Made by a program: the position numbers and the translations under genes. DNA of 64,000 nucleotides from Liolophura sinensis (Eukaryota; Mollusca; Polyplacophora; Chitonida; Chitonidae), in assembly GCF_032854445.1 (NCBI RefSeq), contig NC_088300.1, positions 47,609,682 to 47,673,681 of the forward strand, in the 5' to 3' direction. Below are positions 25,057 to 61,339 of this stretch, piece after piece. The stretch's first letter is position 1. The number at the start of each line of letters is the position of its first letter. The notes beneath the pieces were generated by a model, which saw only the letters and a program-made list of their open reading frames with translations, ran no database searches and was not told the origin of the DNA.

Positions 25057-28000
25057 TCAACTCCACGAGAATCGACTGTCATTTAAAAGTTTGGTAAGTC
25101 TTTTGTTCCATGGTGAGTAAAACTTCTCCAGCAAGGCCCTTGTTTCTGGTAGCATTTCGCCGAGATTCGTGTTCTTCTTGGATCGCGTATTGGCATTTGG
25201 TTTTTCTTCTATGCTCTGTAGCTGTGAACCATCTGGTATATCTGTTTTGCAGTGATATATAGTTAGTATCATGTTCATATGCTTACATGGTAGGGAAAAT
25301 GGAAACATGAATAAGCAAGTATAAGTAATATGCAAAAGAACCGGGACCGATCCCACAAAGTCATTTCTTACTGACCTGAAAAAGTGAAACCATAATTATC
25401 GCTGTGCTGAATTTTACTTCTGGAGGTTGAAATTTTGACACGTTTGCCTTAGGATAACATTTATGAGGTAGTCAAAACATTTTATGTCATGCTGACAAAG
25501 ACAATGCTTACACCTGTACACAGTGGATTCCTCTCGTTAAGTTTTTTTCACCAAGGGAGGTAACCCTGTACATGTGCACAAAAAAAGTTGCCACCAGTTC
25601 ACATAAGAGGTAACAAAAATTATATCCAAGGCAGCATTTTGACTTTTACGCCTTAGATAAACAAGACTGTAATTAGCTATGATTTATCGTTTATTTCAGT
25701 TGTGATTTATACCCTTTTCTTTAGCTTTGTATGCCTTCCGTCTTATGATTGCAAGGGAATAGTCTATAGTAAGCTCGACTTATAGAAAGTTACAATTCAA
25801 AATATAGACTGTCTGGATCAGAGATATTTGGGAACAAATACATACCGAGTTCCAAGAACTTGAAAATACTGACGATGGACTCGGTTACATTGGCGCCATA
25901 GCCTTCTGTCCGAAGAAACAGGAACTGGTCACGGGGGTACAGCTGTAACCAGTCTTCAATATATACGGAATATACACCTATATGTAGCCGAACCTAAAAC
26001 ACGAAAGAACACACAGATTAGCGCCTGCAAGGAGGATTTTTATGTATCATTGAGGACAACTCCTCTGGATCTGTATACAGCAACATGTAGGCATGGTTTA
26101 TAAGACCATTTTAAAGAGGATATGGTTACAGACTCTTAGATTAGTATTCTAAAACACCGCCTTCAATTATCAAGCTAGGTTATAACATGTGATTAGCGCT
26201 TCTTAAAATTTAAATAATTTGGACAACAACACCATTTAATAAACTGGCTCATTGCAAACTTTGGCAAGTTTGCCTGTTGGCTGAATGATATAGAGATTTA
26301 AAAATAAAGCAAATTTTGGTTGTAAATCTCTGTTGGGAAACGCTGCATTGTGAATTACTATGCCGACATAATACAACATCCGACCCAGATTTGAACCACC
26401 GTTTATGAAACAACAATAGACAATGTTAGCTGACCAATGAGGGCATTTTCAATATCTAATTTATTCAACAGCTTATATATGAAAAGTATATAGTGAAAAT
26501 AACATGTATCTGGAAATAAAGCTACTGAAGATTAAACATACATGTTATTCACACGACTGACCGGAATGATATTTTTCGATATACATCATTACGACGACAG
26601 ATCGAGTCAAAACGTTCCCGTGAAAAATGGGCTTGTCCCTTTATGACAGAGTAAGGCTACTTGCCTTTCTTTTAACAAGGTGTTATTTATGCTTAGATCA
26701 AACAAAAGACAGAATATTAATGTATGTTGGGAACCAGTAAGCTTTCTATATGCTAGATATCACACAATGATACATGTGGCAGATTGGTCCTACCATGTCG
26801 TAAAGCAACAACGTCATATCATCACAAAGGGACATATCTCTGTAACGTCGTAGTTTGAAACTACCGCATTGTCTTGAATTAATCCTGAAGTATTTGTTTA
26901 TTTTATTGGTGTTTAACGCCTTTTTCAAGATATTTTTTCACTTGTATAACGGAGCTCAGATTTATCGGTGGACGAAACCACCATGACCACAGTAAACCAC
27001 CCACCTTCACAAACTGATAAAGCTCCTGACTTAAAAACGTAGCCGTTAAACAACGAGAGCAGGAATAGAACACGTGATCTCACTGGTGAACGGCCTGAAA
27101 GTCGCAGCAAACGAGGGTGCCCTCTAACCTAAACTTATTGATAGATAAACCGATACCTGCCTAATGCCATATGCCTAACATGAGAATGCTATTACTGGGA
27201 CGACGTTCCTGCTTTTCCTACAATATATTTTACAACATATTTTGTAAATGATTTACTTTTCACATGTTCCGGGAGGGTTTATTTTAAAACACATTAACCT
27301 ATATTTTAGACAATTTATTTTGTCATGTAACACAATGATACCCGGTTTGCAGTTATAATTTATCATTTACAGTAGTGATTATAACTATTTTACCTCTAGC
27401 TTCCTTGTAATCGAGGAGTCATACAAACAGGCCCTTTCGGTTCTCTTCCTAAAGCAGGTGTTCAACAAAGCTATACTTTGATTAACCTTTTCATGAAACT
27501 TCTCTGCGCTGAGTCCGGCTTGGAAATACAGGTAATCTGAATACAACCTGTAATAAATCAGAGAAAATCGATCACCTCAAAGCCAATCCAGCAATTGAAA
27601 GGTAGTGTACATGTGCGTGACAAAGTACAATGATATCTGTTCTAATGCTTTCTTTTAGACTTACTTAAACCTGCATATCATCATACACACGTACGTTGCA
27701 CATAGGTGGTCCTGAAGACAAACCTGTGTGTAGGTTCCTGATGATCACTTCTATGTAAAGTGGACCTGAACACTAAGTTGTCTGTAGGGTTCTTCATGAT
27801 GACTTCTATGTAAAGTGGACCAGAACACTAAGTTTTGTGTAGGGTTCTTGATAATGACTTCCATGTAAAGTGGCTCTCAACACTAAGTTGTGTGTAGGGT
27901 TTCTGATGATGAATTCCATGTAAAATGCTTTCAACACTAAGTTGTGTTTAGGGTTCTTGGTGATGACTTCTATGTAAAAGTGGCCCTCAACACTAAGTTG

Positions 28001-31000
28001 TGTGTAGGGTTCCTGATGATGACCTCCATGTAAAGTGGACCTGAACACTAACTTGAGTGTAATGTTCTTCATGATGACTTTTATATGAAATGGGCCTGTG
28101 CACTCACCCGAGTGTAGGGCTCCTGATGATGACTTTTATGTAAACTGTTGTTTACGTTATTTATGATGGTTTTTATGTAAAGTGGGCCTCAACACTTATT
28201 TGTATGTAGGGTTACTAATGATGACGTATGTGTAGAGTGAGCCTAAACGCTAACCTGTGTTTTGGGTTCTTGATGATGACGTATGTGTAGAATGGGCCTG
28301 AGCACTAACCTGTGTGTTGGAACCTTGAAAATGACTTATATGTAAAGTGAGCCTGAACACTAACCTGTGTGTTGGAACCTTGATAATGACTTATATGTAA
28401 AGTGAGCCTGAACACTAATCTGTGTGTTGGGTTCTTGATGATGACATATGTGTAAAGTGGGCCTGAACACTAACCTTTGAGTTGGAATCTTGATGATGAC
28501 GTACTTGTAAAGTGGGCCTGAACACTAACCTGTGAGTTGGAATCTTGATGATGACGTACTTGTAAAGTGGGCCTGAACACTAATCTGTGTGTTGGGTTCT
28601 TGATAATGTATGTGTAAAGTGGGCCTGAACACTAACGTGTGTGTTGGGTTCTTGAGGATGAGGTATGTGTAAAGTGGGCCTGAACACTAACGTGTGTGGG
28701 GGAATCTTGATGATGACGCATGTGTAAAGTAAGCCTGAACACTAACGTGTGTGTTCGAATCTTCATGATGACGTATGTGTAAAGTGGGCCTGAACACTAA
28801 CCTGTGTGTTGGGTTCTTGATGATGACGTATGTGTAAAGTAGGCCTGAGCATTAACCTGTGTCTATGGTTCCTGATAATAGCTTCTATGTAAACTGGGCC
28901 TGAACATTATGTAGGCTGTCAGGTAGCTTTGCAGACTTACCTGTCTGTAGGGTTCCTCATGATGACTATCATCTTCGCATTCGGCAGTAAATGATGGATG
29001 GAGTGAATATTAGTCACTGTAGGTTCATCAAACGTTAGGTTGTTTTGTGGTATGTAGCGCCAGTTGCTGTGATCCCATAATGTCGAAGCACTGCAGTCCA
29101 CTTCAAATAGAAAAGAAAATTGAGTATGGGAAGGCGCTGTGTATAATGTTTAGTGCTACATACGAAAACCAAGTTCATAATTGATTCCAAAGCAAGATGG
29201 CCATGAATAACGCATTCACCTATTAATACTCTGAAATGTTAAAAATAAATACTTATTTACTTAATACAGAGTACAGATACATTTCCCAATTGTTGTAACA
29301 CAAGCTACCGGTAATGGAAGAATGTTAAACACTAGCCACTGTCGTGTAGTTGTTTCTGTTTATTTGTTTTTCCAACTGGCTATACCTACTAGTGATCTGA
29401 TGTCGTGGTTCCTTCACAACTGTCGTGTAGTTGTTTGACTCCGATATCCTCTCAGCAGCCACCTGGAAACATTTCAGATAAGTCAGCAAGCTTCCCCCTG
29501 ACAAAGAGAAGAAACGTTTTAGGGTTATTTTGTGCCAAATGGCACATTTGGAGCAGTACACCACTTCTTAAATCACGAGGTAAAGATCGAGAAAAAGTAA
29601 GCAATTGATTGTCACAGACAATCATCTCTAAGTAAACAATGTCACTCAAATATAGGCTAGTGTGTGTATTCGTGCTATTGGCTAATACTGATGCTAAATA
29701 AAAAGATGAATGTGCCTCGACGTGTTTCTGTATTAACATTATAATTTTTTTCTTATACAATTAACCTGTGGTCAAGTGGATATAAAACGCTTGTCCTTAC
29801 ATCGCTATCACAACACGAGCCATGGATTCAGTCCCCGTCATGGACCAGAAATTTGTGGAATCCCCCGTTTTAGTTGTTCGTGCATATACTGACAATAAAG
29901 CGTTGTCCTTACATCGCTATCAGAACACGAGGCATGGATTCAATGCCCGTCGTTGACCGGGAATTTGTGGAATCCCCCGTTTTAGTTGTTCGTGCATATA
30001 GTGACAATAAACGGTTGTCGATGCCGTTTGTGTCGTTTAACGTTCGGAGAAGACGACTTGTCTTCCACTAACATGGTATGCATATATGTGCGTTAAATGT
30101 GGGAAGGTTTGTCAGCAACTTGCCATAGGTCCCACTCATAAAAGGACAGTCTTCGTATAGGTGAAAAAGTCTTGAGTATGCGTGTTCTGGGATTAAGAAA
30201 GACGTCTATCTCAATCCCAGGAGTGTTTAACCACAATGAAAACAAATGAGCCTATTTTCAAGTCCAAGCTTCAGAATTGATTAATATTTTGTACCGTACC
30301 GTAATATACCATATTTAGTCATTATTTTAGTCAGGGTACCAAAAAAATCATTACATTAAACCGTACATAAAATTTAGATGAAAATACTGGCATAGACAAT
30401 AGAGAAACTCAATATCTATTCACGTTTATACTGAATTAAAAAAAATCAAATCAACACCTGTTCAGCGAACATCTTATAAATGTTTAATGTGCATTATTAA
30501 ATCAATTATTTTTTTTTCTGAGAACAATAACTTATATCTTTACTTGAGAACGGGTATCGAGTCAGGTATGATTTTTCCCTGGTATGGTGGCTTATATACT
30601 GTACAGTTAAATTCCATTCTTATGGGAAACAGGAGGCAGGTCGTACATGGCTTATTGGATAAAATTCTTGCCTTTGAACAACTGGGATACATGATGGGTT
30701 GGTTCAGTCCTGGTCACCTTGATTGTTCCCTGTAGCCCATTTCATAAAACTTCTGTAGCCGTGGAAGCTATGTTAGCCGGCTAAGAACCGAAGGCGGATA
30801 GATTTCCTTCACCGCTTCAGCAATATGGGGATGTGCAAGTCTTTTTCAAACGGCCTGAAGTAACTCACAGGTGAGAATTAAATTTCTAAAATTATATTTT
30901 CCTGAAAGACAGCCCTTCATTGTAAAGGAATGTCATTGGTTTTATGGCTTTTTATGTTTAATAAAGCGAGTTGTTCAGTGCCTAAATTCGTAGGTGCCAC

Positions 31001-38402: not shown

Positions 38403-38485
38403 ACATGTGCTTTTTTCACTCATATAACTGAAAAAATCTTGAACACGGCGTGAACACAAATCAATCAATCAATTAAACAGTCAAA
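38403..38485 (+). mobile_element. Short SINE tail-like fragment
   Basis: CACTCATATAACTG, ATCTTGAACACGGCGTGAAC and a run of CAATCAAT units resemble a decayed SINE tail. Confidence 0.35.
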
Positions 38486-39178: not shown

Positions 39179-39533
39179 TATTTGATTGGTGTTTTAAGCC
39201 GTACTCAAGAATATTTCACTTATACGACAGCGGCCAAGATTACATTATGGTGGAAGGAAACCGGACCGAGCCCAGGGGAAACCCACGACCATTCGCAGGC
39301 TGGTATTATGGTGGGAGGAAACCGGACCGAGTCACGACTCTTCACAGGTTGCTGCCAGACCTTCCCACGAACGGCCGGAGAGGAAGTTTAAGCTGGATTG
39401 ATCTCACAATGACCACATTGAGGGGAAGGTCATGGGTCATTGCGCTGTGCTGGCGTGTTACCTTAGCCGCCATCGTATAAGTGAAATATTCTTGACTACG
39501 GCGTAAAACAACAATCAAGTAAGTAAATAAATA
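39179..39533. mobile_element. Composite SINE with internal duplication and both tails inverted
   Basis: It begins on the minus strand with the tail (GGTGTTTTAAGCCGTACTC). It contains two successive body copies (TTATGGTGG.AGGAAACCGGACCGAG at about 39,245 and 39,307) and a head-like GGTCATGGGTCATTGCGCTG. It ends with a plus-strand tail (ATCGTATAAGTGAAATATTC, GACTACGGCGTAAAAC). Another short minus tail piece follows at about 39,550-39,595. It sits where relic D would have had exon 7. Confidence 0.8.
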
Positions 39534-39599
39534 CAATACATTTGTTACGTATTTATTTAGCTGATTGGTGTATAACTGCGAGCTCAAAAACTTTTCAGA

Positions 39600-42500
39600 A
39601 ATTTTTTTGTAGTGTGAACAACGAATGTATGTTCATGAAATAACGGGGTAGATGAAACACGAAAACATAAAGTAATAAATAACTGGAATTGATAAAGTAC
39701 TTATGCTTTTGTTTTTCACTTTTACCGTCAGGTTTATGGGTAATGGAATCACGTGTCTTGAAAACCCAGCCCTTCTTACAATGGAAGGAGGGAGTGAGCA
39801 CGTGGGTAAGGTGAAGTAAAACTAGAATACATTTGCTGGGGAACATGCTGTGATATCAAACAACACAGAATAAGTTTGATATCAAGTAACTGAGGGAAAC
39901 ACGATTGCAACTGATGATCTGGTTAATCAGAAGAGCTGATGGCGGAATGCTTCACTTGGAAATTTATCATTGTTTTTGACTGAATTTGTTTGGATCTTCT
40001 GTTGAATCGTCTGTCATCTTCACATACATACTTTATTTTTATTAAAATATTAATATTTCACGTTTTCATGAAAAACGAGGGATGTTCATTTGGGACATTT
40101 TTCGTCCGAAAACCAAGCAGACCTGCGCATAAGATTTGACGATTTCCTTTATAGAGGTTTATCATTGGTTTTCGTGCAGTAATTGCTTCAAATAGTTCAC
40201 AACATTTTGTGTGCAGATTTATCTTGTGGCATCTCAGATTTGAAAGACAGCTTTTGTCCGTGAATGAAAGAATCGTTGTTGGCTATAATTTATCACTATA
40301 ATTGGCGTTAACAATGAAAGTGGCACGCTTTCATTCATTGTTAGTGAGCGGCACAGCCAAAACTACAACTGGAGACTCCAGTATTATTTAAACTGTATGT
40401 TTAAACTACAGATGCAGTGCGATGAGTATGACACTAATTTCGGGATTATCTTCCTCTCTTATAGCATTCTTTAATGACAGGGACACGCAACGAGGGAAGT
40501 TGAATGTTTTTTTTAAAGCCTGGACAATGGTTATAAAGGAATATTTTGCGATCAGTCTATAAATATTAAAATTATAAACTATTCCAAATATAGTGTAATG
40601 TGTGAAATGTGCCGCGAAAGAAGTACACACCGAGATCCAAAAACTTGATCCAAAAGAGATCCAAAAATTTGAAAACAGTGAGCATGGACTTGGTCACATT
40701 GACGCCATAGTCTTTAATCTGAAGAAACAGGAACTGGTCACGGGAGCAAAGCTGAAACCAGTCTTCAAAATAGGCCTATATACAAACAAGCCTGAAAGAA
40801 AGAAATCGGGTTATTGTAATTATTCGTTAGTTGTTAGAGTTTCTTGTTAAATTATTGATGCTATGAAATGTCGTGAAACATTATCCGTGGTGAATTTTTG
40901 ATGCAGCTTTTTGAACAAGCTGGATGCGGAAGTAAATGACACTTAGATTTGAACAATTTGGATGATAATAATAATAATATCAATAATAATAATGAAGTCA
41001 CTACGTAAATGTAAAAGGTTTCACAAGCTTTCGATCCACACGCCTGGATCATTATCAACTACAACTATGAGCCTTAAGCAATAGCTATCATCCCCTTATA
41101 ATTTGCTTTCTCTGTGACAAAAGAAGTGTGCCTGTTCGACGAATGTAATTTCAAGGCGAGCTCACACAGTACGATTGTCAAGTCAATAGAAAGTGACGGT
41201 AGCAGTCAACAAATCGGATCGTCTGGACGAGACCTATGAAAGAGAGATGTACTACTGTCATTCTACTTGTCGAATACGACAAATCGTATCGCCTGAACTC
41301 GGATGATTGGAAACCTGACGTCTCTCTGGTGAACCACTGTCAAAAATTTTGGAGGTGGGTAGTGGCAAAGTGGTTAACATGCTTGAGTTTCGATACATAG
41401 GGCACAAGTGACATGGTTGCAATTCTTTTCTCTGACAGGGAACTTTCTTTTTGCATTGTGCTGGTTTCTGTGTTCTCGAGGTTTTCATGTGAATAAGATG
41501 TCAACAGTGTTCTGTTGCATGAAGTTCGTTGGACACCACATGTGTTTTACCAACATGACCACACGTTGAAAAATTCCTCGCCCTTAACATGCTTGAGGGC
41601 GGTTGCTAATTTCGGCAACTCTGGTTTCCTTCACCAGTAAGTTAAACGCCAGCGCGGAATTTTTGCATACAGTGTTAAAAACAATCAAACAAATAAATTA
41701 ATCAACCAACATGAAACTGGCTTTCATCAGTCAGTTTAATGTTATTTTTATCCATCCAAAAGTTTATATAAATCGGTTGGGCATAAAAAATGGGCCGTAC
41801 TTTGATGCTGCATTGCTCCATTATCCTTTGTTCAAACCTTTCAAAACCCTAGACATTCAAGTGGCATAATTTGTTAATATACTGACCAGTTTTCAAGGTC
41901 ATAGCTTGAGTAGTCTGTATACAGGGTTAAAATGAAAACATAGTCTCAAAAGCGCTCATTCCGGTGACCCAGATTGCATCACCTGTCAGGTGTCATGAGT
42001 ACAGCGCGCGCTGCACCTGACATGCGTCAAACAAGTATCGGTTGGAAAAACTGTCTGGCTCTAGAAACCCTTCTGGCAGATAGGCGCAAGTTTTGCTGAA
42101 TCAAGATGGTTTTCTCTGCGGCGGACAAGGAATTGGCCACCTTTTCAAGTAAAACAAGGTAGAACATCATTTTGAAATGTCCGGAAAATGCGTTTTTGAC
42201 TCTATTTTGATTTTGGTCCCATGAACAGAAATCTTAAAGGATCAAATTGATTTGATTTGTAGATTCATTTGGTCCGTATACTTAGGACATAATGGCTTTT
42301 GAGTGTGTAAATTTTTAGAAGCTGACGTGAGAGGGTTTCGGAGATATTGAGTGTCAAAGTATTGCCCATTTTTTTACGTCCACCCAATACATATATCAAT
42401 AGTATACTGACAATGGTAATAAAGCGACTGTAGCTAGACAGAAAATGAAAAGCAAACCACAGACCAAATCTTGTCTTATTATGTGAATATTTAGGGCATC

Positions 42501-42740
42501 GTCTTTTGGGCGAAAAATCTAATGACTTACGAAACAGAAAGTGACTTGTATTTCCCAAAGATATACACGTTGCAACTCGCTTGAGGTCATAGGTTTGATT
42601 TAAAATGTCAGTTTCGTGTGTATAATGTGGTTATTAAATAAAATTAAGGCTGTAAACTTTTAACACACCGAGTTTAAGCAAACCGTTTCAGCCGACGTAG
42701 ATTGCGGTGCACTTCGATATGGTACATTATATATATCATC
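39600..42740 (-). pseudogene. Relic D: duplicated intron 6, exon 6 and intron 5 of a CHST15-like gene
   Basis: The stretch parallels gene B from 48,255 to 50,870. Shared intron 6 words include GGCTATAATTTATCACTATA and ACTACAACTG.AGACTC.AGTA. The exon 6 copy lies at 40,631-40,791. Shared intron 5 words include TCTCTGACAGGGAA.TTTCTTTTTGC and CCGTTTCAGCC. In the exon copy, 11 bases near the start are missing and the frame hits TGA after eight codons. Its 3' end carries a short duplication of TTTTTGGATCTC next to the donor. The remains FEDWFQL, DQFLFLQ and NVTKSM are gene B-like. Exons 2-5 and 7 are not found. Confidence 0.85.
40970..40998. repeat. AAT trinucleotide microsatellite
   Basis: Ten or so AAT/ATA units lie within the intron 5 copy of relic D. 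Gene B has the equivalent run at about 49,639-49,657. Confidence 0.85.
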
Positions 42741-43349
42741 AATTTTAAGTAAGCTATTCTTACATAACTTCAGTGCAACTCAGGAGAGGTGGTCTAATTT
42801 TAGTTTCTAATGACAACAATTGTTGCATTTAAGGAAAAACAGGGTAAGTTTTAATTTCTGCAGATTCTACAGAAAAGAAATTTAACCCCCCTCCCCACAA
42901 AACATCATATTCCAGATACCCAGAGTATCAACCTGATTGGGCACAACCTGATCAACCTGAGTAGGCACAACTAAAAAAAATGGTGGTAATGCTAGGTTAA
43001 TTTTTTGATATGTTGTATAGAAAAGTGCAAGCTGTATGTGGTGGTATGACTTTTACTACCCGAAAGTTAAGGGGCATGTAGTTTTGAGGTTCAAGTTGAC
43101 AGATTTGCTGCATATATAGTAAGGAAAATCAATGCGCTCGGGTAAGCTCCATGACCTTGTGGTTAGTTTATAAACTTTCTTTTTGTTTTTACAATCATTC
43201 TGGATACAGTTATAATTTGTGGTGTAAAACTTTGTCATTGTAAGGTTGCCATAACGACAGTAGTAAAGAGTGGAAGTATATAGCGTGGGCAGAGATTCTT
43301 ATGTGAAGTATACAGCAATGCATGGGCGGCGATTTTTATATGAAGTATA

Positions 43350-43588
43350 CCATGGGTGTCCATTCGGATATGTATGATGCATATCGTGTGTGGCGGCGGT
43401 TATGCTGTGAAGTACAGAATGGGAGATGGTTCTGATATGAAATATAGCGAGGGTGGTGGTTCTGATGTGATGTATAGCGTGGGCGGTGGTTCTAATGTAA
43501 AGTATACAGCGGGCGGTGGTTCTGATTTGAAGTACAGAACGGAAGGAAGTTCCCACATGAAGTATAGCGTGGGCGGCGGATCTGCTTA
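43350..43588. repeat. 30-bp minisatellite, about seven copies
   Basis: The unit is of the type AAGTATAGCGTGGGCGGTGG plus TTCTGATATG, with diverged outer copies. Glycine-rich and histidine/threonine-rich frames open on both strands because the period is 30. Confidence 0.9.
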
Positions 43589-43997
43589 AGTGTAACGGGA
43601 GCGGCAGTCTAATAAGCAGTCAGTATGGCCCCCTTAAGTTGTTATATCTTGGGCAGTGGGCACAGTATATGATCATGCAGCCTCACAGAACATTTAAATC
43701 ATTTGCCAATTAAAATATCCCACTTTACTGCTTTGGTATATATAATAAGCATTACTTATCACATAAGATATCTCTTTACATGTTATACAACAGTTGCTTC
43801 TATCCGTGGGTTTGTTGTCATCATTATCATTCGTTCGTATTAGCGTGGATCCTGTTTAAATTTTACTTTAAATATTCTGAACAGCCCATTAATCAACTTT
43901 CAAATTATTCCAATATTTGGGGTCACTGGAAAAACAAAATTTAAAGTTGTCCAGATATTTTTAAAGAACCGAGTCAATGTTTCACGATATATTTTAA

Positions 43998-44090
43998 TGA
44001 TTTGATTGGTGCTTTACCCCGTACTAAAGAATGTTTCCTGGGTCACTGAGCTGCGTTGGCACGCTAACCACCTCGACCACGGGTATAACA
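43998..44090 (-). mobile_element. SINE with internal deletion (family 1)
   Basis: The minus strand shows the tRNA-like head GTGGTCGAGGTGGTTAGCGT..CCAACGCAG and CAGTGACCCAGG, joined directly to the tail (ACATTCTTTAGTACGGGG). The middle of the element is deleted. Confidence 0.75.
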
Positions 44091-44490
44091 CAATACTTGG
44101 TCAGGGGACAGATTCCACAAAGCAAAGTCATCTGTTTACTTGACTGTGCTCTAACAGTATACTCTGCCAGGTTTAGGGGTGGAGGAAAGCCTCCGGCTTT
44201 AAGCGACATCATCATTGGTGAAATGTATGACAGTTGTACATGTAGTGTCACTAGTTTAATGGTCAGAATTACTAGTTTTAGTTGTCAGCGAGGGTCCCGA
44301 CAAGCGATCGGCGGCCCGATGTAAAATCTCTCCAAGTATAAGACGAACCTGTCTATACGCTCAGATCTGATGACTTCAGCTGTTCACTGTATGGACATCA
44401 AGTTATAAATGTATAGCAAATTAAAACCTAAAGGACAAGGAGGAAATGTAATAGAGGACAACATCTGACATATAATGTAGAAATACATAC

Positions 44491-44869
44491 CATTGCGAGA
44501 ATGTGCGCAAAGCTATTGTTTGGACTTTCAACGACTGTTTCTTTGTAAGTCTTTTCCGTGTGCACCAAAGATGTTCTCGTTGTGGCGTCAGCGGTCAGTT
44601 GTGTTTGTAGGCTATATTCCTGAGAAGGCGCTCCTCTAAAGACGTTGTAAGAGTGTTGACTAAATAACGTTTACCAGAAGTGCTAAGAGTAGCGCCTTTC
44701 TATGGCTCAAATGCCTGAGTGGATGGAGCCTCATTCATGTCAAGATTCCACAGTTGAGAGATTCTGACTTTTGGACCAATGCCGTGTACAAAACAAGTAT
44801 GCCTTGAATGAGACCAAAAATCAATAAAAATCCACATGAGAGAAACAGCATATATTTTCCACCAAACAT
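44491..44869 (-). pseudogene. Broken exon 1 of a CHST15-like copy
   Basis: The minus-strand ATG at 44,869 opens MFGGKYMLFLSCGFLLIFGL, clearly related to the membrane anchor of genes A and B. The frame then breaks: PKVRISQLWNL appears in a second frame. The end, VHTEKTYKETVVESP, is in register with a donor ATG|GTATGT. The length from ATG to donor is 379 nt, not a multiple of three. No exons 2-5 belonging to it were found, so it is most likely dead. Confidence 0.8.
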
Positions 44870-45599: not shown

Positions 45600-46700
45600 G
45601 TGTCACAGGCAGTGGGCCGTCATGCGTCACAGACAGCAGTCATCTGTCATGTGCTACAGACCATAATAGTAGCCTGTCATGTGCCACAGGCAGTGGTCCG
45701 TCATGTGTTACAGACAGTTGTCTGCCATATGCCACAGGTAGTGGTCTATCATGTGTTATAGACAATTGTCTGTCATGTGCCACAGGCAGTGGTCCGTCAT
45801 GTGTTATGGACAGTTGTCTGCCATGTGCCACAGGCAGTGATCCGTCATGTGTTATGGACAGTTGTCTGGCATATGCCACAGGCAGTGGTCTATCATGTGT
45901 TATGGACAGTTGTCTGTCATGTGCCACAAGCAGTGGTCCGTCATGTGTTATGGGCAGTTGTCTGCCATATGCCACAGGCAGTGGTCTATCATGTGTTATA
46001 GACAGTTGTCTGGCATATGCCACAGGCAGTGGTCCGTCATGTGTTATGGACAGTTGTCTGGCATATGCCACAGGCAGTGATCCGTCATGTGTTATGGACA
46101 GTTGTCTGCCATGTGCCACAGCAGTGGTCCGTCATGTGTTATGGACAGTTGTCTGTCATGTGCCACAGGCAGTGGTCCGTCATGTGTTATGGACAGTTGT
46201 CTGTCATGTGCCACAGGCAGTGATCCGTCATGTGTTATGGATGGTTGTCTGCCATGTGCCACAGGCAGTGATCCGTCATGTGTTATGGACAGTTGTCTGT
46301 CATGTGCCACAGGCAGTGGTCCGTCATGTGTTATGGACAGCTGTCTGTCATGTGCCACAGGCAGTGGCCCGTCATGTGTTATGGACAGTTGTCTGTCATG
46401 TGCCACAGGCAGTGGCCCGTCATGTGTTATGGACAGTTGTCTGTCATGTGCCACAGGCAGTGATCCGTCATGTGTTATGGATAGTTGTCTGCCATGTGCC
46501 ACAGGCAGTGATCCGTCATGTGTTATGGATAGTTGTCTGCCATGTGCCACAGGCAGTGGTCCGTCATGTGTTATAGGCAGTAGTCCGTCATCTACCACAA
46601 ACGGTAGTCCGTTGTGTACCACAAACAGTAGTCCGTTAGGTTCCAGCAATAATCCATCTTGCGTTACAAACAGTAGTGTGTCATATGTCATATGCCATGG
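45600..46700. repeat. 48-bp minisatellite built from 24-bp half units, about 22 copies
   Basis: The unit combines CAGGCAGTGGTCCGTCATG and GGACAGTTGTCTGTCATG. The two halves are diverged copies of one 24-bp sequence. The central copies are nearly identical and the ends are diverged. Because the period is divisible by three, open frames of 150-250 codons appear in several frames and on both strands; I do not call them genes. Confidence 0.96.
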
Positions 46701-48062: not shown

Positions 48063-51000
48063 TCAAGTCCACAAATAAAGGCTGTCATTTAAAAGTTTGG
48101 CAAGTCTTTTGTTCCATGGCGAGTAAAACTTTTCCAACATAGTCCTTGTTTCTGGTAGCATATCGCCGAGATTCTTGTTTTTCTTGGATCGCGTATTGGC
48201 ATTTGGGCTCTCTTCAATGCTGTGTAGTTTTGACTTCTCGGGGGAATCTTTTATAATGAAAGAAGAAATGAATTGTTTGTGAAATAACAGTTTCGCGTGA
48301 AACATGAAAACATGAAGTAATAAACAAGTGCCTTTGCTCTTCATTTTCACTTTTACCATCAAGTTACGATCCAGGATTCTTCACCGTAGAAAGTCTAAAT
48401 CTTCTTACAAATGTGAAGAGGACTTGGGCCAGCACGTGAAGTAAAACTTTTGACTACATTTGCCAGGAGAGGGGGAGGCTAAATGAGGAAGGACACGTTC
48501 GCAACCGATGGTGTCATTAATCAGAAAAATTAAAGGTGGAATGCTTCAGCTGGACGTTGTTTTTGACTGAAATATTTTGGATTTTCTTTAGACATGTCTC
48601 ACTTTTATAAATCCATTGTAATTTAATTTTGAAGTTTATATTTCAAGTTTAGACGAAAAGCAAGAGCTATTAAATTGTGTCTGTCCGTTAGCCATCTGTC
48701 ACGCTTTGGTTTCTGTGGAATAACTTCTCCAAATATATTTCAATTTTGATAAAATATATCTTCAGATTTCTTTTTGGACCCTCAGATAAAAAGGTTGATC
48801 GTTGGTTTCCGCGCAATAATTTCTTCAAATATTTTCCGCTTTTCATCACATTTTGCGTGATTGTGATTTATCTTGTGGCCCTTCAGATTCGAAAATGGTC
48901 TTGTTTTACTCGATGAATAAGTTTTGTATGTTTAAATAGAATGGGATATGGGTTTGCTGACTTTGCTCTTCACTTATTTCTTGGACTGGTGATTTGTCAA
49001 GGGACTACTGAGGCGAGACAAACGATTTCGCAACTAAACCAGCAAGTGTACCAAGTTGTTGGCTATAATTTATCACTATAATTGGCTTTAACAATGAAAG
49101 TGACAGGCTTTAATTCATTGCTACTAAACGGCACTGCAAATACTACAACTGTAGACTCAAGTATTATTTAAGCTGTATACTTGAACTACAGATCCAACGC
49201 GATGACCATGACACTGATTTCCGGATTATCTCCCTTCCGTATAGCATCCTTTAATGATAATGTCATGTTTAGACAACTTTAACAATGATGATTAAAAGGC
49301 TATGTTATGATGAGTCTAACGTATAATAAGTTACAAACGATTCCAAATATAGTTTCCATACGCCAACTGTATTCAGGGAGTAGTACATACCGAGATCCAA
49401 AAACCTGAAAACATTGAGGATGGATTTGGTCACATTAGCGCCATAGTCTTCAGACTGAAGAAACAGGAACTGCTCACGAGGGTAAAGCTGAAACCAGTCT
49501 TCAATATATACGGAATATACACCTATATACAGACGAACCTTAAATAAAAGAAATCGCACAGATTATTGTAAATGATTTCTAAATTGTTAGAGCTTCTTTC
49601 AGAACAATGAAGATATGAAATGTTGGTAGGAAGCTTGGGTAATAATAATAATAATATCATTGCTTTCTATTTGCTTTCTTCATGTCGAAAACAAGAGTGT
49701 ACCTGTTCGACTAATGCAGTGTGCCTGTGGTACGATTGTCGAGTTCGTCTGGCGAAAATAGAAAATGCTCTATTTCAACAGATCGCAACGTCGAGAGTTT
49801 GGAGAGCCGAAGTGCCATTCTCTGACAGGGAAATTTCTTTTTGCGTTGCACTGGTTCCAGAACCTTGAAATAAGCCGTCAGCAGCGTCATCTTGCGTGAA
49901 GTTCGATGGACATCACTTTCCTTTTATTAATATGACAAATATTACGCATAGAAAAATCCCTAGCTTGATCTTGTCAAGGGGAGGTGGTTTCATTTTGTCT
50001 ATATTCCATTTTTATGAGCATGCAACTATGTCATTTCATGGCGTCCGACCACATTATGGGCGACCAAACATTAAAAGGTCGAAATGACCAGAATATTTCA
50101 GTCAGATTTAGGTCCCAGAACAGGTTCAAATAACCCATAACCAACTCCGATAGCTCAGCTGTTAGAGCATCCGCTTCGGAGGCGGTAGATCCAGGGTCAA
50201 TCGTGGGTCGGGTCACACCTGAGACCTTAACAGAGGAAGTTGTAACTTCCTCGCTTGGTGTTCAACATTAAGGGGATAGTGCAACGACTGATTTATCCGT
50301 ATTAGTATAATAGCTAAGGCGGCGTGGCTTACTTGCCCTCGCTAAGTCGTCTCAGTGAAGCAGCACTAGATAAAAGAACGGTGGAAATCCGTCCTGCAAC
50401 AAGGAGGCACATTACACGTATATGATCGCTAAGGACTCCTTCGTCGTCATATGATTGAAAAATTGTTAAGTACAACGTTAAACCCCGAACACTCACTCAC
50501 TCAAAATAACCATTAATAGAGTGGTCCAAACAACCAATAAAACTTTGTCTATAATGTTTACCATGACCCTAATTTGGTGACCAAAGAAAAAGCGACCACA
50601 GAAAATGCGACCTCATTAGTTTTGGTTGCTTCGACCAAATGTACTTTGACCCTATTCTGGCGACCATGAGCATTCGACCATAATGGTTCTTTTGACCAGT
50701 CTTTTAATGGTTAGCGTGCTTTGTTTGGTCGACTTGACCAGATCCTTTTAACAGTGTGGGTATAATATTCGTTATTAAATAAAAATTAAGGTTAAAAAAC
50801 TTTGAACACACTGAATTTTTACGCCAACCGTTTCAGCCAACTTACATTGCCGTGCACATTATACAACGGTATTTACCTGTAGAGTTCTTTGGAACTGCTT
50901 GTCATACAGACAGGCCCGTGTGGTTCTTTTCTTAAAGCAGTCTTCAAGTATGCCTATACTCCGAATCACAAATTTGTGAAAGTTAGATGCACTCAGTCCG

Positions 51001-54000
51001 CTATTGAAATACAAATAATCTGAATACAACCTAAAGAAACAGAAAAACGACAAGATGTAGAATTTGACAGGGATGCAGAACAAAACATTACTTATCCACC
51101 CATAGTTTTCACAGTGAAATATTCCGACTTTTAAAGAAATAATAATACTTAAACTATGTTTGAAATTTTATACACGTGGAATTTATAATCTTTGTTCAAG
51201 GTTCTTGATGGCGACTTCTCCATAAAATTGCCCTTAACACAAACCCGTGTGTATGGTTCCTGATGGTGACTTCCCTATAACATCCCATTGAACACTAAAC
51301 GGTGTGTTGGGTTCTTGATGGTGACTGCTTTATAGTCGGATTGAACACTAGCCGTTTTCCTGATGGTGACTTCTGTATAAAGTCGCCTGAACACTAAACC
51401 CTGTGTTGGGTTCCTGAAGGTGACTTCTCTATAAAGTCACCCGGAGCAATGACTCGTGTGTAGGATTCCTTATAATAACTTATCTGCACAATGGCCCTGA
51501 ACATTAATCCGTGTGTTGAGTTCCTAATGGAGACTTCTCTATGAAGTCACCCTGACCACAAAACCTTGTGTTAGGTTCCTCATGGTGACTTCTCTATAAA
51601 GTCGCCATGAACACTAGCCCGTCTGTAAGGTTCCTGATGATGACATGTATGTAAAGTAGGCCTGAAGAGTAACATGTGTACAGGGTTCCCGGTTCTACAC
51701 TTCTGTGTAGAGTGGCGCTGAACAATAACCCGTGTGTTGGGTTCCTGATGATGACTTCTGTGTAGAGTGGCCCTGAACACTAACTTATGTGTTCATAAGT
51801 TTTCTGGTGATGACTTCTATAGATAGTCCTGAAGATAACTGATGTGTGTGTATTGTCGTTGAATAGTGGCTCTGGACACTTACCTGTCTGTAGGGTTCCT
51901 CATGATGACTATCATCTTCGCATTCGGCAATAAATGATGGATGGAATGGATATTCGTCACTGTAGGTTCATCATATGTCAGGTTGTTTTGTGGGATGAAG
52001 CGCCAGTTGGTTTGATCCCATAATGTAGAAGCACTACAGTCCACTTCAAAATATAAAATAATTGAGTAAGTTAAGAAACTGCATATAACATTTACTGCGA
52101 CATACGAAAACGCTGATAGCCGTGGCGGAGCGGCTTAGCACGCCAGCGCAGTTTAAGTCCAACTCATACTGGCTTCCTCTTCGGCGCTACGTGGGAAGGT
52201 CTGATGTAACCTCCAGATGGCCGTGGGTTTCCCCTGGGCTCTGCCCGGTTTCCTCCCACCATTATGCTGGCCCTCGTCGTATAAGTGAAATATTACAGAG
52301 GTTAAGATACTAGTGAACGACCTACGAGTAATGAGTGACCTTATCTTTATCTGTGTACGACCTGAAGGTCGGCAAATCTAGTTCGCACCGTCTGCTCGTT
52401 CATTGCGAGATGAACGATACTTACTGGTAATACATTTCCGAGTCAATATTTGGAGGTTTTATCTGATTGGATATGAAACTGAAAACGACCTACTCGTGAA
52501 GCAATAGTCTATCGTAAATATAGAAGTTTACTTGAAAAATGTAGAAGTTAAACTGGAACTTCAACTGCACGTATTTTATGCATATGACACTGTGCGGTAA
52601 TGATATAGCGTACGTGCCGCGGCTTTCAAGCTCACCCTATGCCGTAAACATGTAAACAGCGTTCTGTTGTGCGTCATTCCTAATATGTATCACTAATGAC
52701 TTCATGAAAATGCTCGCTATATCTACTGGTAGTTTGATATCGTGGCTCCGTCACAACTATGGTATGGTTGTTTGACCATGCCATATTTTACTACACACGA
52801 TTCCTACTAGTAATTTTATGCCGCGGTTCCGTCACAACTATGGTATAGTTGTTTGACCATGCCATATTTTACTACACGCGATACCTACTAGTAATTTTAT
52901 GCCGTGGTTCCGTCACAACTATGGTATAGTTGTTTGACCATGCCATATTTTACTACACACGATACCTACAAGTAATTTTATGCCGCGGTTCCGTCACAAC
53001 TATGGTATAGTTGTTTGACCATGCCATATTTTACTACACGCGATACCTACTAGTAATTTTATGCCGTGGTTCCGTCACAACTATGGTATAGTTGTTTGAC
53101 CATGCCATATTTTACTACACACGATACCTACAAGTAATTTTATGCCGCGGTTCCGTCACAACTATGGTATTGTTGTTTGACCATGCCATATTTTACTACA
53201 CGCGATACCTAGGCCTACTAGTAATTTTATGCCGCGGTTCCGTCACAACTATGGTATAGTTGTTTGACCATGCCATATTTTACTACACGCGATACCTACT
53301 AGTAATTTTATGCCGCGGTTCCGTCACAACTATGGTATAGTTGTTTGACCATGCCATATTTTACTACACGCGATACCTACTAGTAATTTTATGCCGCGGT
53401 TCCGTCACAACTATGGTATAGTTGTTTGACCATGCCATATTTTACTACACGCGATACCTACTAGTAATTTTATGCCGCGGTTCCGCCACAACTATGATAT
53501 AGTTGTTTGACCATGCCATATTTTACTACACGCGATACCTACTAGTAATTTTATGCCGCGGCTCGGTCACAACTATCGTATAGTTGTTTGACTCTGCTAT
53601 TCTCTCAGCTGCTTTTTGAAAACACTTCAGGTAGGTCAGCAAGCTTCTACCTGCCAAAGAAAAGAACATTTTGAATTTAATCCCAATCCTTAAACAATGA
53701 AGCAAATATGCATGCAACTGCGAGATAATCATTTCCTAAAAAATATCCAGGAATCACCCTGTCAGTCCGTCTGTCAGACCGTAGACATGATTTTGTTCAT
53801 GCATCTCCTCCCAAACTACTGCGGCGATTTCGATGAAACTTATGTACATTTTGCTTATCATTTGAACTTGTGCATGCTTAAGTTTACTGTAAATCGGATA
53901 ATTTTTTTCACAGTTGTCCTCATTTGTGACTTAGGGTAATAGTGATTTGCCATGTGTTTCAGATTCTGTCCATGCAACTTTTCCTAAAGTACTGAACCTA

Positions 54001-57000
54001 TGAAAATTTCCATGAAACCAAACATACATGTGCTCTATCATCTAAATCTGTGTTTAATTACAATCGGGAAAATATTTCGATAATGACTCCCGTTCAGATA
54101 CTTAGTGCAATAATGGATTTTCATGTACACAGATTTTGTCCATGGAACGCCTGTTAAAGTATAGCACCAATTTCCCCTAAGACTTTGTGTATATCTTTTA
54201 TCACATCTAAACATCTACATGATTAATAATAATGACAGTCTGATTATTATTTTTTTCTTGGAAATGTTGAGGGATGAAAGAGGGAGAGGGTATTTCGGAA
54301 ACCCGGATTCTAGTTTTATTTTTTTTCTGTTGCTGTTGTAAGTTCCCTTGACGTGGGGTTCCGTGCATATGTCATAGCTACGTACCTTTTTGATATCTAC
54401 GCCTGGTCCACCAGTGAGGTTCTTTAGCACACGGTGGTTGTATCTGGGGATGCAGCGCTAGTCGACGGTACAGATCCGTGGTACCACACTTAGGGAAGCC
54501 GGCTACGAAGAAATAAGGCAAGCAGCGGATCTCTCCTTTGAAGTTTCCGTCCATTATGCTGTGTCTGATCTCTGATGCCCTTTCAATCCAGCAGGGATTT
54601 TTGAAATTTCTAAGATGGGCAACTGGAGGCTGTGAACAAATAATTGAACATTGAGAATGGCTGATTGCTTGAGTTTTACTATATTCTCATGTACACGCTT
54701 TACGGGACTTATCCACGTGACCCCTTAGGCTTTGCTAACACTACAACTTACTAGTGAGTGAGTATTTGGGGTTTGATATCGTACTTTGAACAATTTTTAT
54801 TACGACGAAGGAATCCATAGTGTGCATGTGATGTGCCTCCTAGTAAGATGTGCCTCCTTGTTGCAGGACGGATTTCCACCGCTCTTTTATCTAGTTCTGC
54901 TTCACTGCGAAGGCAAGTAAGCCGCCCAGTCCGAGCCTTTATACTGATATCCCATTAATGCTGAAAGCCCGGCGAGGAAATTACAATTTCCTCTTTTAAG
55001 GTCTTACTGTGCTATCAGGGCCGGCTACTGTTTGGCGATTACTGTTTGGTGGCTATTAGTATTAATAATATGCCGTTTGTGGTGATTATCAGTAATATGT
55101 CATTGGTGGCGATTAGTATTAGTAATATGTAGTTGGTGGCGATTAGTACCAGTAATGAGCCGTTGGTGGCGATTAGTATTAGTAATAAGTCGTTGATGGC
55201 GATTAGAACAGTAATTAGTCATTATCTGATGGTTGTCTGGACAATTATTCATATTTATAAACGCACAGCGCGGGGTTTTATTTTGACCAGTAATAAGTCG
55301 TTGGTGGCGATTAGTATTAGTGATATGTCGTTGATGGCGATTTATATTAGTAATGAGTCGTTGGTAGTGGTTATTACCAGTAATAAGTAGTAACAGTGGC
55401 GATTAGTAACAGTGGCAAGTTCTTGGTGGCCATTAATATCAGTAATAAGTCTTTGGTGGCGATTAGAAACATAAATAAGTCACTGGTGACGACTACGATA
55501 AGTAATGAGTCACCGCAGGTGAGTTTGACCACTGTTATTGATGGCAATTCTGATAAACGGTAAAAGGAGGTGGGGGTGGCGAAATTCAAACCAGATTCCA
55601 TCAAGGTGGCTGTTCAAAGGTAAGGCATGAAAGGGATAAGGCTAGAGATCAACGGAAAAAGTTAAAGTTTGACTTTTGTTGTAGATATATAAAAACTAGA
55701 AAGGCAATATCCGTATTGCAACAACTACTACAGGGCGATTCACCATATATATTGTTGTTCGATATTTCGTATTTTACTAAATTATTATAAAACGAACATA
55801 AATACATGTACCAAATCACATTGTAATCATGTAGCCTAATGCATTTTATCACAGTGTGCATAAGTTGTGAACTCCAGCAGGCCAGCGTCAGGTCCATACG
55901 TGTTCTTCCATGATATTGTTGAGTATGGATATTAATCATAAGCCTGTTAGCAGAATAATATGTTAAAAAGTAACTCAAACTGAAAATTTTAATAACTTAA
56001 TTATATAGTAGTTGTAAACAGTAATATCTGAAGACGTCTTTGTTTTCATTTCAACAGTAACCGGCAATATATATATCACAGCCTATACTCGCTGTTCGAA
56101 AATGTTACCTACGCTTTGTAAAGTGGATTTACCCAAGAAATCGCTCTATTCAAACGACTGACTCAGCAATTTGCTTATCTGAGCTCTGACACATCTGTCG
56201 TCACTTTATAAAAATATTAAATCAAATATTTCCGATATGGATAAAATGAGTGTGTGGCACACTATTCGTTCTATATCTTAACAACAATGAAACTTCAAAA
56301 AGGAATTGAATGCAAAGCCGAAAACATGTGTTAGCTGCAAAGCAAGGAATCTTTGTCAGACTATTCTTCGATTTTCTGTGCAACTGTGAAACCCGAGTGA
56401 CCTCATACATGCAAGGTGCATTTGTTGAGAGTGCAAGGAAGTGCAGTGTACAGTAGCGAAAAATGACGTACCCAAATTCATAATTCATGCTTTATGTAAG
56501 GGAGGCCACTATTTTTTTATCATAAATGGAGTGCTCTCCCTTGTCCTCCAATGTATGCACTTTAACCCCTGTGTATGCAGTAACCTCGTCCCATAATCTG
56601 GGTCGTGCTATGAGGCGTCTAAAGCGGGAATTTCACTCATGCTTCACTATTACTCCTCATGTAGCTATAGTAACGCACGCATTCTGGTGCACGATTGGGG
56701 GATTTCACTGATCACTTGCCTTATATCATCTCATGTTTGTACATGTGCATCTAGATGCTACTGATTGGGGTTCCTTATATTATACATATTATGCAGGCCT
56801 AGCTCGTCTCTGACCAGTCATCGTTGTCTACCTGGGCATAAACATGACCACTTAATCACAACCATAAGCTTAGACGTCACCATAAGCCCAGGCATAAACA
56901 AGACTAAGTTTACCACTTAATCACAACCATAAGCTTAGACGTAACTGTAAGCCCAGGCATAAACAAGACTAAGTTTACCACTTAATCACAACCATAAGCT

Positions 57001-60000: not shown

Positions 60001-61339
60001 GTGTGTGTTTTATGTTTTCTGATAATATCTATCAAGTGGATAAGTGAACATGCACTAGAGTCCAATTATTTTTTTAAAATGATAATATTTTGTCGGTACT
60101 ACATTATTTTCTTCTTCTTATTATTATTATTTCTTAATGTTGGTAAAAACCCGGTCCATAAAAATGATTGTGAGAATGGGTTCTTCACTTCACAGAAAAC
60201 TTATATTTGTAGAATGTACATGTCTTTGGTCACCATTCGTTTTATGGATCTTACTTATGATCAGAAAGCAAACATTTTATTGTTTATGTACCTAAAGAAT
60301 GCAGTATACGCACACATTCCAAGCACTCTGAGAATGGCTTTGTCCTTGAGTTAATGAGATGACCAACGGATGTACCTGTTGTACAAGCTGACGCCTGGAA
60401 CTACATTTAGACTACATTTCAGAAAACCTCTCCTTTTATATAATGTAAACAAGTATAAGTCAACAGTTTTAGGTTACAGTGGCTCGAACCTAAAAAGAAC
60501 ATAAATATCCCACCGCTTGCAAAAATACAGCAGTTAAATCAGTATACGCAGTTATATAGGCCGTGCGGCATCTGTCGCGAGCACTATGTGATTTATGCAT
60601 ATTTTTGTCGATTGACACTATCATTTACCGGTTCACAGTATACATCCCCATGATTGATGCAAGTGGCAAATAATTTCTGCCTTATCATCAAACAGTGAAG
60701 AACTTCATGTTGATGACATCAATATTATGTTACTGTTACACAGTTAACATGTCCTACATGGGTCTACTGGTTATCAGAAAATCGTTGACCCTATCTGTTA
60801 AGGAATCCGTTAAGGAATCAGGTCTAGACAGGTAAGGTAGATATGTCTGTAAACCAAGCCTTGCGCACTGGAATCGTTCAGCTGTTCATCGCTCAAATAA
60901 CGATAATGTTAAACCCACGTGTACATACCTTTCGGAGAATGTCGGTGAAATTTCGTGAGGAAACTTCAACGAATGTTTCTTTATAAGTCCTTTCCGTGTG
61001 AACTCGATAGGATGTGTTTTTGGCGTCAGAGGGCACATTTTCTGGTGAATTCCATATAATTCGTTCTGGAGATAGCTGATGATTGTTATCTGGTAAGCGT
61101 TCACCGGGAGAGCGGGAAGCAGGGGTTGTCCCAAATTCAAATGTCCGAACGTATGTTGTCTCAAAGGTGAAATCAGTCCTCGTTAAATAATATTTCCAAA
61201 GATTGGTGATTTTGGCACCATATGTAGCGCGGATAGGTTTTGGAACGGACGCCGGTTTCAGAATGACCATGCCTTGAAAGAGGACAAAAAGCAAGAGAAA
61301 CCCACAAAATACAAACAGCTTACATTGTCCATTAAACAT
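48063..61339 (-). CDS. CHST15-like: Gene B: CHST15-like carbohydrate sulfotransferase (7 exons, 469 aa)
   Basis: Exons on the minus strand are 60,929-61,339, 54,386-54,629, 53,543-53,650, 51,884-52,043, 50,877-51,030, 49,391-49,538 and 48,063-48,247. Exons 2-7 have exactly the same lengths and phases as in gene A; exon 1 is four codons longer. The membrane anchor is FCGFLLLFVLFQGMVI. The PAPS-binding motifs are FPKCGTT at 182-188 and MRNPTDRLYSDYLYF with R303 and S311. The same Golgi type II sulfotransferase role as gene A is expected. By eye the exons encoding PAPS-binding parts are about 90% identical to gene A (exons 2 and 4), while exon 5 is only about 60% identical. A frame upstream of the ATG is open but starts without ATG, so I use 61,339. 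Introns 1, 3, 4 and 5 are filled with repeats. Confidence 0.93.
50027..50103 (+). repeat. Dispersed repeat copy in intron 5 of gene B
   Basis: It matches 45,420-45,565 in inverted orientation (GGCGTCCGACCACATTATGG, AAACATTAAAAGGTCGA). Related GACCA-rich sequence continues at 50,517-50,760 on the other side of an inserted SINE. Confidence 0.75.
50141..50506 (+). mobile_element. Full-length tRNA-derived SINE, family 2
   Basis: A tRNA-like head has the A-box-like TAGCTCAGCTGTTAGAGC, an anticodon-arm-like CGCTTCGGAGGCG and the B-box-like GGGTCAATCG. A body follows with GGTGGAAATCCGTCCTGCAA and the tail AAGTACAACGTTAAACCCCG and CACTCACTC. The flanks AAATAACCCAT (about 50,128) and AAATAACCAT (about 50,508) are a probable target-site duplication. 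It differs from family 1 in head and body. Confidence 0.85.
50517..50760. repeat. GACCA-rich degenerate short repeat in intron 5 of gene B
   Basis: The words GCGACCA, TTCGACCA and GTCGACTTGACCAG recur every 15-30 bp without strict order. It continues the element at 50,027-50,103, split by the family-2 SINE. Confidence 0.6.
51190..51880 (-). repeat. About 55-bp minisatellite in intron 4 of gene B, made of exon 4 end plus splice donor
   Basis: About 12-13 units lie directly downstream of exon 4. On the plus strand units read GTGTGTTGGGTTCCTGATG then GTGACTTCT; the real exon end reads CTGTCTGTAGGGTTCCTCAT then GATGACTATC. Each unit thus holds a copy of the exon 4 end and a donor-like GGTTAGT or GGTTTAGT. 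The array is homologous in origin to the one in gene A but has diverged in sequence. Confidence 0.85.
52113..52295 (+). mobile_element. SINE with shortened head (family 1) in intron 3 of gene B
   Basis: GCCGTGGCGGAGCGGCTTAG and CACGCCAGCGCAG (head), then GGGTTTCCCCTGGGCTCTGC, GTTTCCTCCCACCA and CGTATAAGTGAAATATT. The part between head and body and the tail after AAATATT are missing. Confidence 0.85.
52722..53600 (-). repeat. 81-bp minisatellite in intron 3 of gene B, made of exon 3 end plus splice donor
   Basis: Ten intronic units lie next to the copy that is the real exon 3 end. The landmark CCGTCACAAC recurs at 52,748, 52,829, 52,910, 52,991, 53,072, 53,153, 53,240, 53,321 and 53,402 (one step is 87 bp). 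A CCGCCACAAC variant is at 53,483 and the exon version is near 53,564. Each unit includes the last about 40 coding bases of exon 3 (NNYTIVV..EPRHKIT), the donor GTAGGT and about 35 intronic bases. Most units keep GTAGGT. The unit reads to a stop five codons after the donor, so failing to splice at the true site would truncate the protein. Confidence 0.93.
54753..55012 (-). mobile_element. Family-2 SINE, lacking the tRNA-like head
   Basis: It begins on the plus strand with the reverse of the tail (GTGAGTGAGTATTTGGGG) and continues with TTGCAGGACGGATTTCCACC and GAGGAAATTACAATTTCCTC. The tRNA-like head is missing. Confidence 0.8.
55045..55530. repeat. About 30-bp minisatellite in intron 1 of gene B
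   Basis: Units of the type AGTAATAAGTCGTTGGTGGC plus GATTAGTATT recur about 12-14 times with variations and interruptions (for example 55,215-55,285). Confidence 0.85.
56491..58541. mobile_element. Foldback (long inverted-repeat) element, about 2.05 kb
   Basis: The left arm (56,491 to about 57,066) and the right arm (about 57,690 to 58,541) are inverted copies. They are about 98% identical by eye over the outer about 350 bp. Terminal sequence is CTTTATGTAAGGGAGGCCAC. The inner parts of both arms hold 65-bp tandem units (AAGCTTAGACGT, AAGCCCAGGCATAAAC, TTACCACTTAATCACAACC), with two to three units left and about six right. The loop contains a copy of the dispersed repeat seen at 12.1 kb. No transposase is encoded, so it is non-autonomous. 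No convincing target-site duplication was found and the superfamily is unknown. Confidence 0.85.
57427..57633. repeat. Dispersed repeat, copy 2, in the loop of the foldback element
   Basis: AGAGTAAAACCAGAGCA, GTTCATGTAAATGC and TTATTAGACGTCAC match 12,110-12,330. The sequence after the last word is not continued here but resembles 59,690-59,765. Confidence 0.65.
58575..58905. repeat. 65-bp repeat units outside the foldback element
   Basis: About four to five units (GGTTACGTCTAAGCTTAT, TTGTGATTAAGTGCTAAACT, TTATGCCAAGG) lie just beyond the right arm. They form their own subfamily with TATAGTTGTG instead of TATGGTTGTG. They show that the unit also expands independently of the arms. Confidence 0.85.
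58965..59299 (-). mobile_element. Full-length family-2 SINE with 14-bp target-site duplication
   Basis: The minus strand has the tRNA-like head (TCAGCCGGTAGAGCG, TGGATCC-like region GTAGATCCAGGGTTAATCC), a body with CTGGAAATCCGTCCTGCAA and the tail AAGTACGACGTTAGACC. The 14-bp sequence GTTATGTTCAAGAG is directly repeated at 58,951-58,964 and 59,300-59,313. Confidence 0.92.
59400..59670 (-). mobile_element. Full-length family-1 SINE with target-site duplication
   Basis: The minus strand begins GGGGCTTCCGTGGCTCAG and GTTAGCGGGCTAACACAGCG, continues through the standard body and ends GAGTACGCCGTAAAA plus an AAATA tail. TTTTTATCAG is repeated at 59,390-59,399 and 59,675-59,684. Confidence 0.92.
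59690..59765. repeat. Dispersed repeat, copy 3 (partial)
   Basis: GAATTACTCAATATGCCGTG, TTGTCACC and TATACAATCACATTGAAACA match the right part of the 12.1-kb copy. Confidence 0.55.

Follow-up and report, generated by a model that had tools for sequence, protein, structure and literature searches.

An 81-bp array in intron 3 of a Liolophura sinensis sulfotransferase gene copies the end of exon 3 together with its splice donor

How does an intron come to hold a tandem series of copies of the end of the preceding exon, each beginning from the same coding sequence and running through the splice donor, and how might the gene tolerate them? The question is raised by a 64-kb window (the whole stretch of DNA analyzed here, C6:47609682-47673681 of a 609-Mb, 632-contig assembly, with 0 N in the window), where a sequence-only reading had reported that an 81-bp array in intron 3 of one gene, gene B, copies the end of exon 3 with its donor. 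We find that the exon-end array is real, with exon 3 and its donor where that reading had placed them, and the observation as a whole is confirmed in the sequence with corrected details.

Using tblastn and tblastx together with inspection of the junctions, we placed gene B at 61339-48063 and its paralog gene A at 35460-25057, both on the minus strand with seven exons and encoding 469 and 465 aa, respectively. In both genes the spliced frame is open over all seven exons, and the exon phases are identical throughout. The exons of gene B are as follows.

60929..61339, minus strand: exon 1, with a type II membrane anchor by inspection
54386..54629, minus strand: exon 2, containing FPKCGTT
53543..53650, minus strand: exon 3, 108 nt, phase 1 at start and end (a splice-consistent model with paralog matches)
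51884..52043, minus strand: exon 4, donor CAG/GTAAGT
50877..51030, minus strand: exon 5
49391..49538, minus strand: exon 6
48063..48247, minus strand: exon 7, with stop

Gene B is a sulfotransferase by its Pfam domain PF00685 (E 2.8e-21), which scores 76.5 bits against a cut-off of 22, while PF13469 scores 54.9 against 27; genes A and B both fall in Sulfotransfer_1 and Sulfotransfer_3 above the curated Pfam cut-offs. The top PDB sequence match of the gene core is 3rnl, a sulfotransferase (E 7.7e-10). We take gene B to be CHST15-like from its motif order, and we likewise assume that FPKCGTT in exon 2 is the 5′-PSB motif and that the motif encoded from exon 4 on is the 3′-PB motif. The window also contains, at 36991-44869, remnants of a fourth sulfotransferase copy (one piece like exon 1, two like exon 6 and one, with a stop, like exon 7), an interval in which exons 2-5 of gene B have no clear match, and, at 45674-46599, a 48-bp minisatellite of 19 copies, both strands of which contain long open frames.

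TRF places the intron 3 array at 52715-53592 with a period of 81, 10.8 copies, 94% matches and a score of 1534, and a 28-nt core occurs 10 times on the plus strand versus a mean of 0.00 in 100 shuffles. The repeat unit indeed combines coding and intronic bases, but the numbers are 49 coding nt from the end of exon 3 and 32 nt of intron 3 rather than the roughly 40 and 35 first estimated, and the orientation has to be corrected, since both the exon and the copies are read from the minus strand. The array runs head-to-tail and is contiguous with exon 3: register 0 joins the final 49 nt of exon 3 to the 32 nt with which intron 3 opens, and register 1 starts 81 nt downstream of the exon tail. The interval first given for the array, 52722..53650, ends exactly at the start of exon 3, of which the last 49 nt belong to register 0. 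The parts of the array are these.

53543-53591, minus strand: coding part of register 0, inside exon 3
53537..53542, minus strand: exon 3 donor GTAGGT, taken as authentic, phase 1
52776..53510, minus strand: registers 1-9, near-identical intronic units of 81 bp each, unit 4 being 87
52712..52775, minus strand: register 10, a diverged edge unit with states also present in exon 3 of A and D

Ten near-identical units had been counted; there are nine, plus the edge unit, which is changed at 24 of 81 sites. The eight standard-length units among registers 1-9 carry 0-3 changes per 81 relative to the consensus, unit 4 equals the consensus apart from a 6-bp insertion, and private and shared variants are distributed over the units in an ordered pattern. 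The unit can fold into an 8-bp hairpin (z -2.6 as DNA for one unit, z -2.8 as RNA over 361 nt), which might promote slippage.

Array DNA is matched in at least three places in the 609-Mb assembly, namely gene B itself, exon 3 of gene A and a paralog, D, at C6:47685976-47686447, and on this basis we reject a dispersed satellite. Paralog D has an older, degenerate 81-bp array at its exon 3 junction, with successive spacings of 81, 81, 80, 86 and 81 and a poor last copy. Gene A has a short remnant in intron 3, which holds no copy of the donor, and both A and B have a second array in intron 4.

29390..29497, minus strand: gene A exon 3
29338..29355, minus strand: gene A intron 3 remnant, 18 nt identical to the gene's own exon 3 tail and lying 81-82 nt downstream of it
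28941..29100, minus strand: gene A exon 4
27706..28906, minus strand: gene A intron 4, 55-bp array whose units resemble the exon 4 end
51200..51792, minus strand: gene B intron 4, 55-bp array whose units resemble the exon 4 end

A protein search of the assembly gave 36 exon matches, some of them in four less closely related genes on C9, C7 and C6. In one of these, paralog E (L040), intron 4 contains a 75-bp array whose unit includes about 56 nt of exon 4 plus a donor; within it (L040:1907-3920) CCAC/GTAAAT occurs 14 times and CCAG/GTAAAT four times including the true donor, the CAC form lying in the young distal part. A single copy of the exon 3 end with a donor GTGCGT lies about 163 nt into intron 3 of E (L040:1095-1275). 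A tract at 52150-52294 in intron 3 of gene B, which we take to be SINE-like by motif, has copies elsewhere in the window, and the arrays in intron 4 of D and E contain similar tracts.

We then asked of all 36 donors and 36 acceptors of the seven genes whether the exon edge has a copy in the adjoining intron. The strict test aligned 45 bases of each exon edge with the neighboring intron and ran 100 shuffles, a match having to score more than 3 points above the best shuffle; six donors pass (exons 3 and 4 of A and B, exon 3 of D and exon 4 of E) and none of the acceptors, with D exon 4 just under the margin (33 versus a best shuffle of 30). The gentler test extended to all junctions the settings of an earlier test that covered 8 exon 3/4 donors only (an 80-base query, a milder mismatch penalty, 200 shuffles and introns cut at 4,000 bases). 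Here 8/36 donors beat all 200 shuffles, these being the strict six plus exon 4 of D and exon 3 of E, so that the donors with copies come from four of the seven paralogs (A, B, D and E). Copies are found at 8/14 exon 3/4 donors versus 0/22 other donors (Fisher p 1e-4, a value that ignores shared ancestry), and the eight cases may represent just two to four events, as the paralogs share ancestry. A by-eye candidate remnant of exon 4 in paralog F (L039) is not significant, since 4/200 shuffles are as good in the gentler test, as were 11/300 in the earlier test and 8/300 with E's unit as the query.

On the acceptor side, the gentler test gives one marginal case in 36, L039 exon 6 (31 versus a shuffle maximum of 30), which does not pass the strict test; acceptor tests are looser where exon starts are approximate, as for exon 3 in L037-L040, exon 1 of D and some exons 7. 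A 61-bp array lies just before the L039 exon 6 acceptor (L039:2367-2846), and by eye its unit resembles the acceptor plus the exon start. A cruder test used exon fragments from 30 loci for the 36 sulfotransferase matches, with many fragments from the same genes, loci in plus orientation and sides assigned by hand for minus-strand genes. It gave a donor-side copy in 7/30 sulfotransferase fragments and one weak acceptor-side match in 30 (gene B exon 5, 28 versus 22), and a P450 control gave 0/25 fragments on either side (25 of 30 loci, five with long single-frame matches having been dropped).

As judged by two structural features that gene B has in the one assembly, the nearest precedent is the human CBS VNTR, a repeat that affects splicing or enzyme activity. 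PMC2630376 names the 31-bp VNTR c.1444_1467+7(16_21), with 24 coding plus 7 intronic bases and 16-21 copies; the unit spans the exon end and the first intronic bases, so each copy holds the exon end and the donor. The gene B unit is likewise an exon 3′ end plus donor, repeated head-to-tail and contiguous with the exon. It differs from the CBS VNTR in its length of 81 bp, in its nine near-identical copies with an in-frame stop in each, in that relatives of the sulfotransferase feature occur in four paralogs, at the donors of two successive exons, and in the evidence from B and D that exon tail and array evolve together. A second CBS variant, c.844_845ins68, is described in the same paper as a duplicated exon/intron junction with two equivalent splice sites of which one is selected; unlike the array here, it lies at the intron 7/exon 8 boundary with one extra copy and no array, and by our own reading it concerns the acceptor side, though the text there says donor. 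In potato RdRp, PMC4974935 reports a tandem duplication across an exon-intron boundary with splice signals copied. The gene B duplication also crosses an exon-intron boundary with splice signals, but its copies are inside an existing intron and lack a copy of the exon's acceptor. We see no sign in gene B of a new intron gained by tandem duplication, because the position of intron 3 and, by our reading, its phase are the same in paralogs where the search gave no copy of exon 3.

Our preferred explanation, to which we give a probability of about 0.8, is that the array is an exon-junction minisatellite of the CBS VNTR type that homogenizes with the coding exon tail and is tolerated by the gene. 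It would have begun as a tandem duplication spanning the 3′ end of exon 3, the donor and 32 intronic bases, and would then have been amplified by slippage or unequal exchange, with the exon tail, as the first register, joining homogenization by gene conversion. Such homogenization of the exon tail with the array would make each exon end resemble its own intronic copies in B and D. The gene would tolerate the array because splicing would use the donor closest to the acceptor of exon 3, with exon definition keeping the 108-nt exon, and the copies would be removed with the intron and be near-neutral for the gene.

The relationships among the units fit this explanation in B and D. The B exon tail lies at a distance of 0.04-0.07 from its own units 1-9 and the D exon tail at 0.11-0.19 from its own units 1-4, and B registers 0-9 are 0.17-0.30 from D registers 0-4. 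The B edge unit lies at 0.28-0.32 from the rest of the B registers as well as from the A and D exon tails, and D units 1-4 are 0.30-0.41 away from it; the sixth register of D is 0.46-0.51 from everything. In the unit tree (17 rows with D5 and A1 left out, B10 on a long branch, and resolution mostly limited to the B/D split), one clade of the three exon tails of A, B and D is rejected (p-AU 0.0001). The tree as built thus conflicts with gene relationships, the exon tails grouping with their own gene's copies in B and D. The B edge unit keeps A/D states that are rare or absent in B units (CCACGA, TATAGC and CAA/CAG in place of B's AAA codon), and it therefore appears to predate B's current array sequence.

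Recent expansion had been read from the identity between units. For gene B this fits, with units 1-9 differing by a mean of 2.7% compared with a dS of 0.42 overall between paralogs A and B. A unique recent event, though, is not supported: D has its older array at the same junction, A its 18-nt remnant, and E one exon-3-end copy with a donor. On these comparisons, exon-end copying is old or recurrent, and only the present homogeneity of B is recent. In exon 3 itself (53543-53650), A and B have diverged unusually far at synonymous sites, with a dS of 1.38 versus 0.42 overall, over 36 codons.

The exon 4 tail of E differs from paralog F at 1/57 sites and visibly more from E's own units; by this comparison it shows no homogenization with its young array, which counts against our preferred explanation. 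The B exon tail has three differences from the unit consensus, all synonymous, which speaks for that explanation, and by our reading about four of five distinct coding-part changes in the intronic units would alter an amino acid, numbers that are small but suggest constraint on the exonic copy only. In register 0 of B the intronic half is closer to the units than the coding half is, which counts against the preferred explanation and is unexpected under a simple exon-constraint story.

A bolder form of the idea, which we regard as possible but rather unlikely, is that exon ends in this family are the edges of living satellites, with unequal exchange or gene conversion carrying variants from unconstrained intronic copies into the last 16 codons of exon 3. 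A Q to K change in HKIT and a CGG codon are common to the B exon and units 1-9 and absent from A, D and the edge unit, and a T to I change in YTIVV is present alike in the B exon, units 1-9 and the edge unit. Such coding changes may have begun in the exon or in the array, and the data fit both. If the bolder form is true, the intron would be a mutational reservoir that rewrites coding sequence.

Whether the array could instead act on splicing depends on the donors. In A and B the first GTAGGT, in phase 1, is compatible with the exon 4 acceptor TG GAC, also phase 1; the junction letters are the same in D, and the exon 3-exon 4 junction of gene B reads IT-M-DCSAST. By our own reading of the junctions, the corresponding place in paralogs has IT-G-EGSMST or VT-V-DASGST, for instance, and exon 3 ends in phase 1 in the other five paralogs too. 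An alternative donor TAG/GTATCG, whose GT is 4 nt downstream, scores higher and was rejected because it would be out of frame with the exon 4 acceptor that the paralogs have in common; an alternative pair of sites was also rejected, as by our reading it would delete two residues present in the paralogs compared. Frame and homology thus point to the first donor, predicted to be the only one giving an open frame. A donor GTAGGT had been attributed to every unit; the 9-mer CTA/GTAGGT is exact in registers 0, 1, 2, 3, 6 and 8, so that five of the ten intronic registers are exact decoys, and it is altered in registers 4, 5, 7, 9 and 10. An in-frame stop soon after each donor is likewise seen in registers 0-9, as TAG TAA, but in the edge unit the frame stays open until a later stop. 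Were exon 3 prolonged into the array, its frame would reach RV-stop-stop in register 0 after five extra codons, and the frame supports the earlier statement that use of a decoy donor would bring a premature stop; a downstream copy serving as donor would meet the in-frame TAG TAA and probably lead to nonsense-mediated decay.

We consider it improbable that the array is a splicing element, in which repeated U1-binding sites help a weak donor or decoys set a regulated NMD fraction. In a small in-house donor matrix, trained on 30 family donors with all exon 3 donors left out, the exon 3 donor of A, B and D (CTA/GTAGGT) is the weakest of 37 family donors at 3.0 bits, compared with 7.4-9.3 for the other four paralogs, and this weakness and the exact decoys of B speak for a splicing role. 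Gene A, however, has the same weak donor and a remnant without a donor copy, the donors of units 4, 5, 7 and 9 in B are changed, and in D the donor is gone from two of the four decoys scored, although a third outscores the authentic one. The exon 4 donor of A, B and D, moreover, has copies despite being the strongest of the 37. As gene A has no decoy donor, we reject the view that a weak donor needs the array as a crutch.

An assembly artefact, with reads mis-stacked over a shorter repeat, is a natural concern for near-identical 81-bp units, which are prone to copy-number error. It is made very unlikely by the diverged version in D, which cannot come from a stacking error, and the ordered private and shared variants and the one 6-bp insertion in B also argue against it.

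We find it highly improbable that the downstream copies are alternative ends of exon 3 giving short enzyme isoforms. The length of 81 is divisible by three, as had been pointed out, and the extended frame ends after only those five codons, but the product would lose everything from exon 4 on, including the presumed 3′-PB motif. Divisibility holds in B and looks incidental, as the spacings of 80 and 86 in D and the 55-bp units in intron 4 of A and B break the frame rule; on the same spacings, in-frame exon extension is rejected as a conserved function.

That an independent minisatellite or mobile repeat inserted by exon 3 and supplied the exon end by chance is hardly credible, for although the window contains many other minisatellites (38 TRF rows), the unit is matched at the homologous junctions of A, B and D (among the matches listed, a lower bound) and its coding part has a homologue in exon 3 of paralog L038, for which the tests gave no copy.

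If an exon-junction minisatellite homogenizing with its exon is indeed what we see, a coding segment is evolving in concert with a tandem repeat, and copies of this kind recur at the same two donors in the family. The locus would also be a natural experiment on donor choice, with one acceptor facing six identical donor 9-mers of which only the first gives an open frame. As read from the sequence, gene B is a severe natural test of that choice, and gene A offers the same weak donor without decoys. Because the feature recurs across paralogs, comparing these would directly test how junction repeats originate, what they cost and how they are tolerated.
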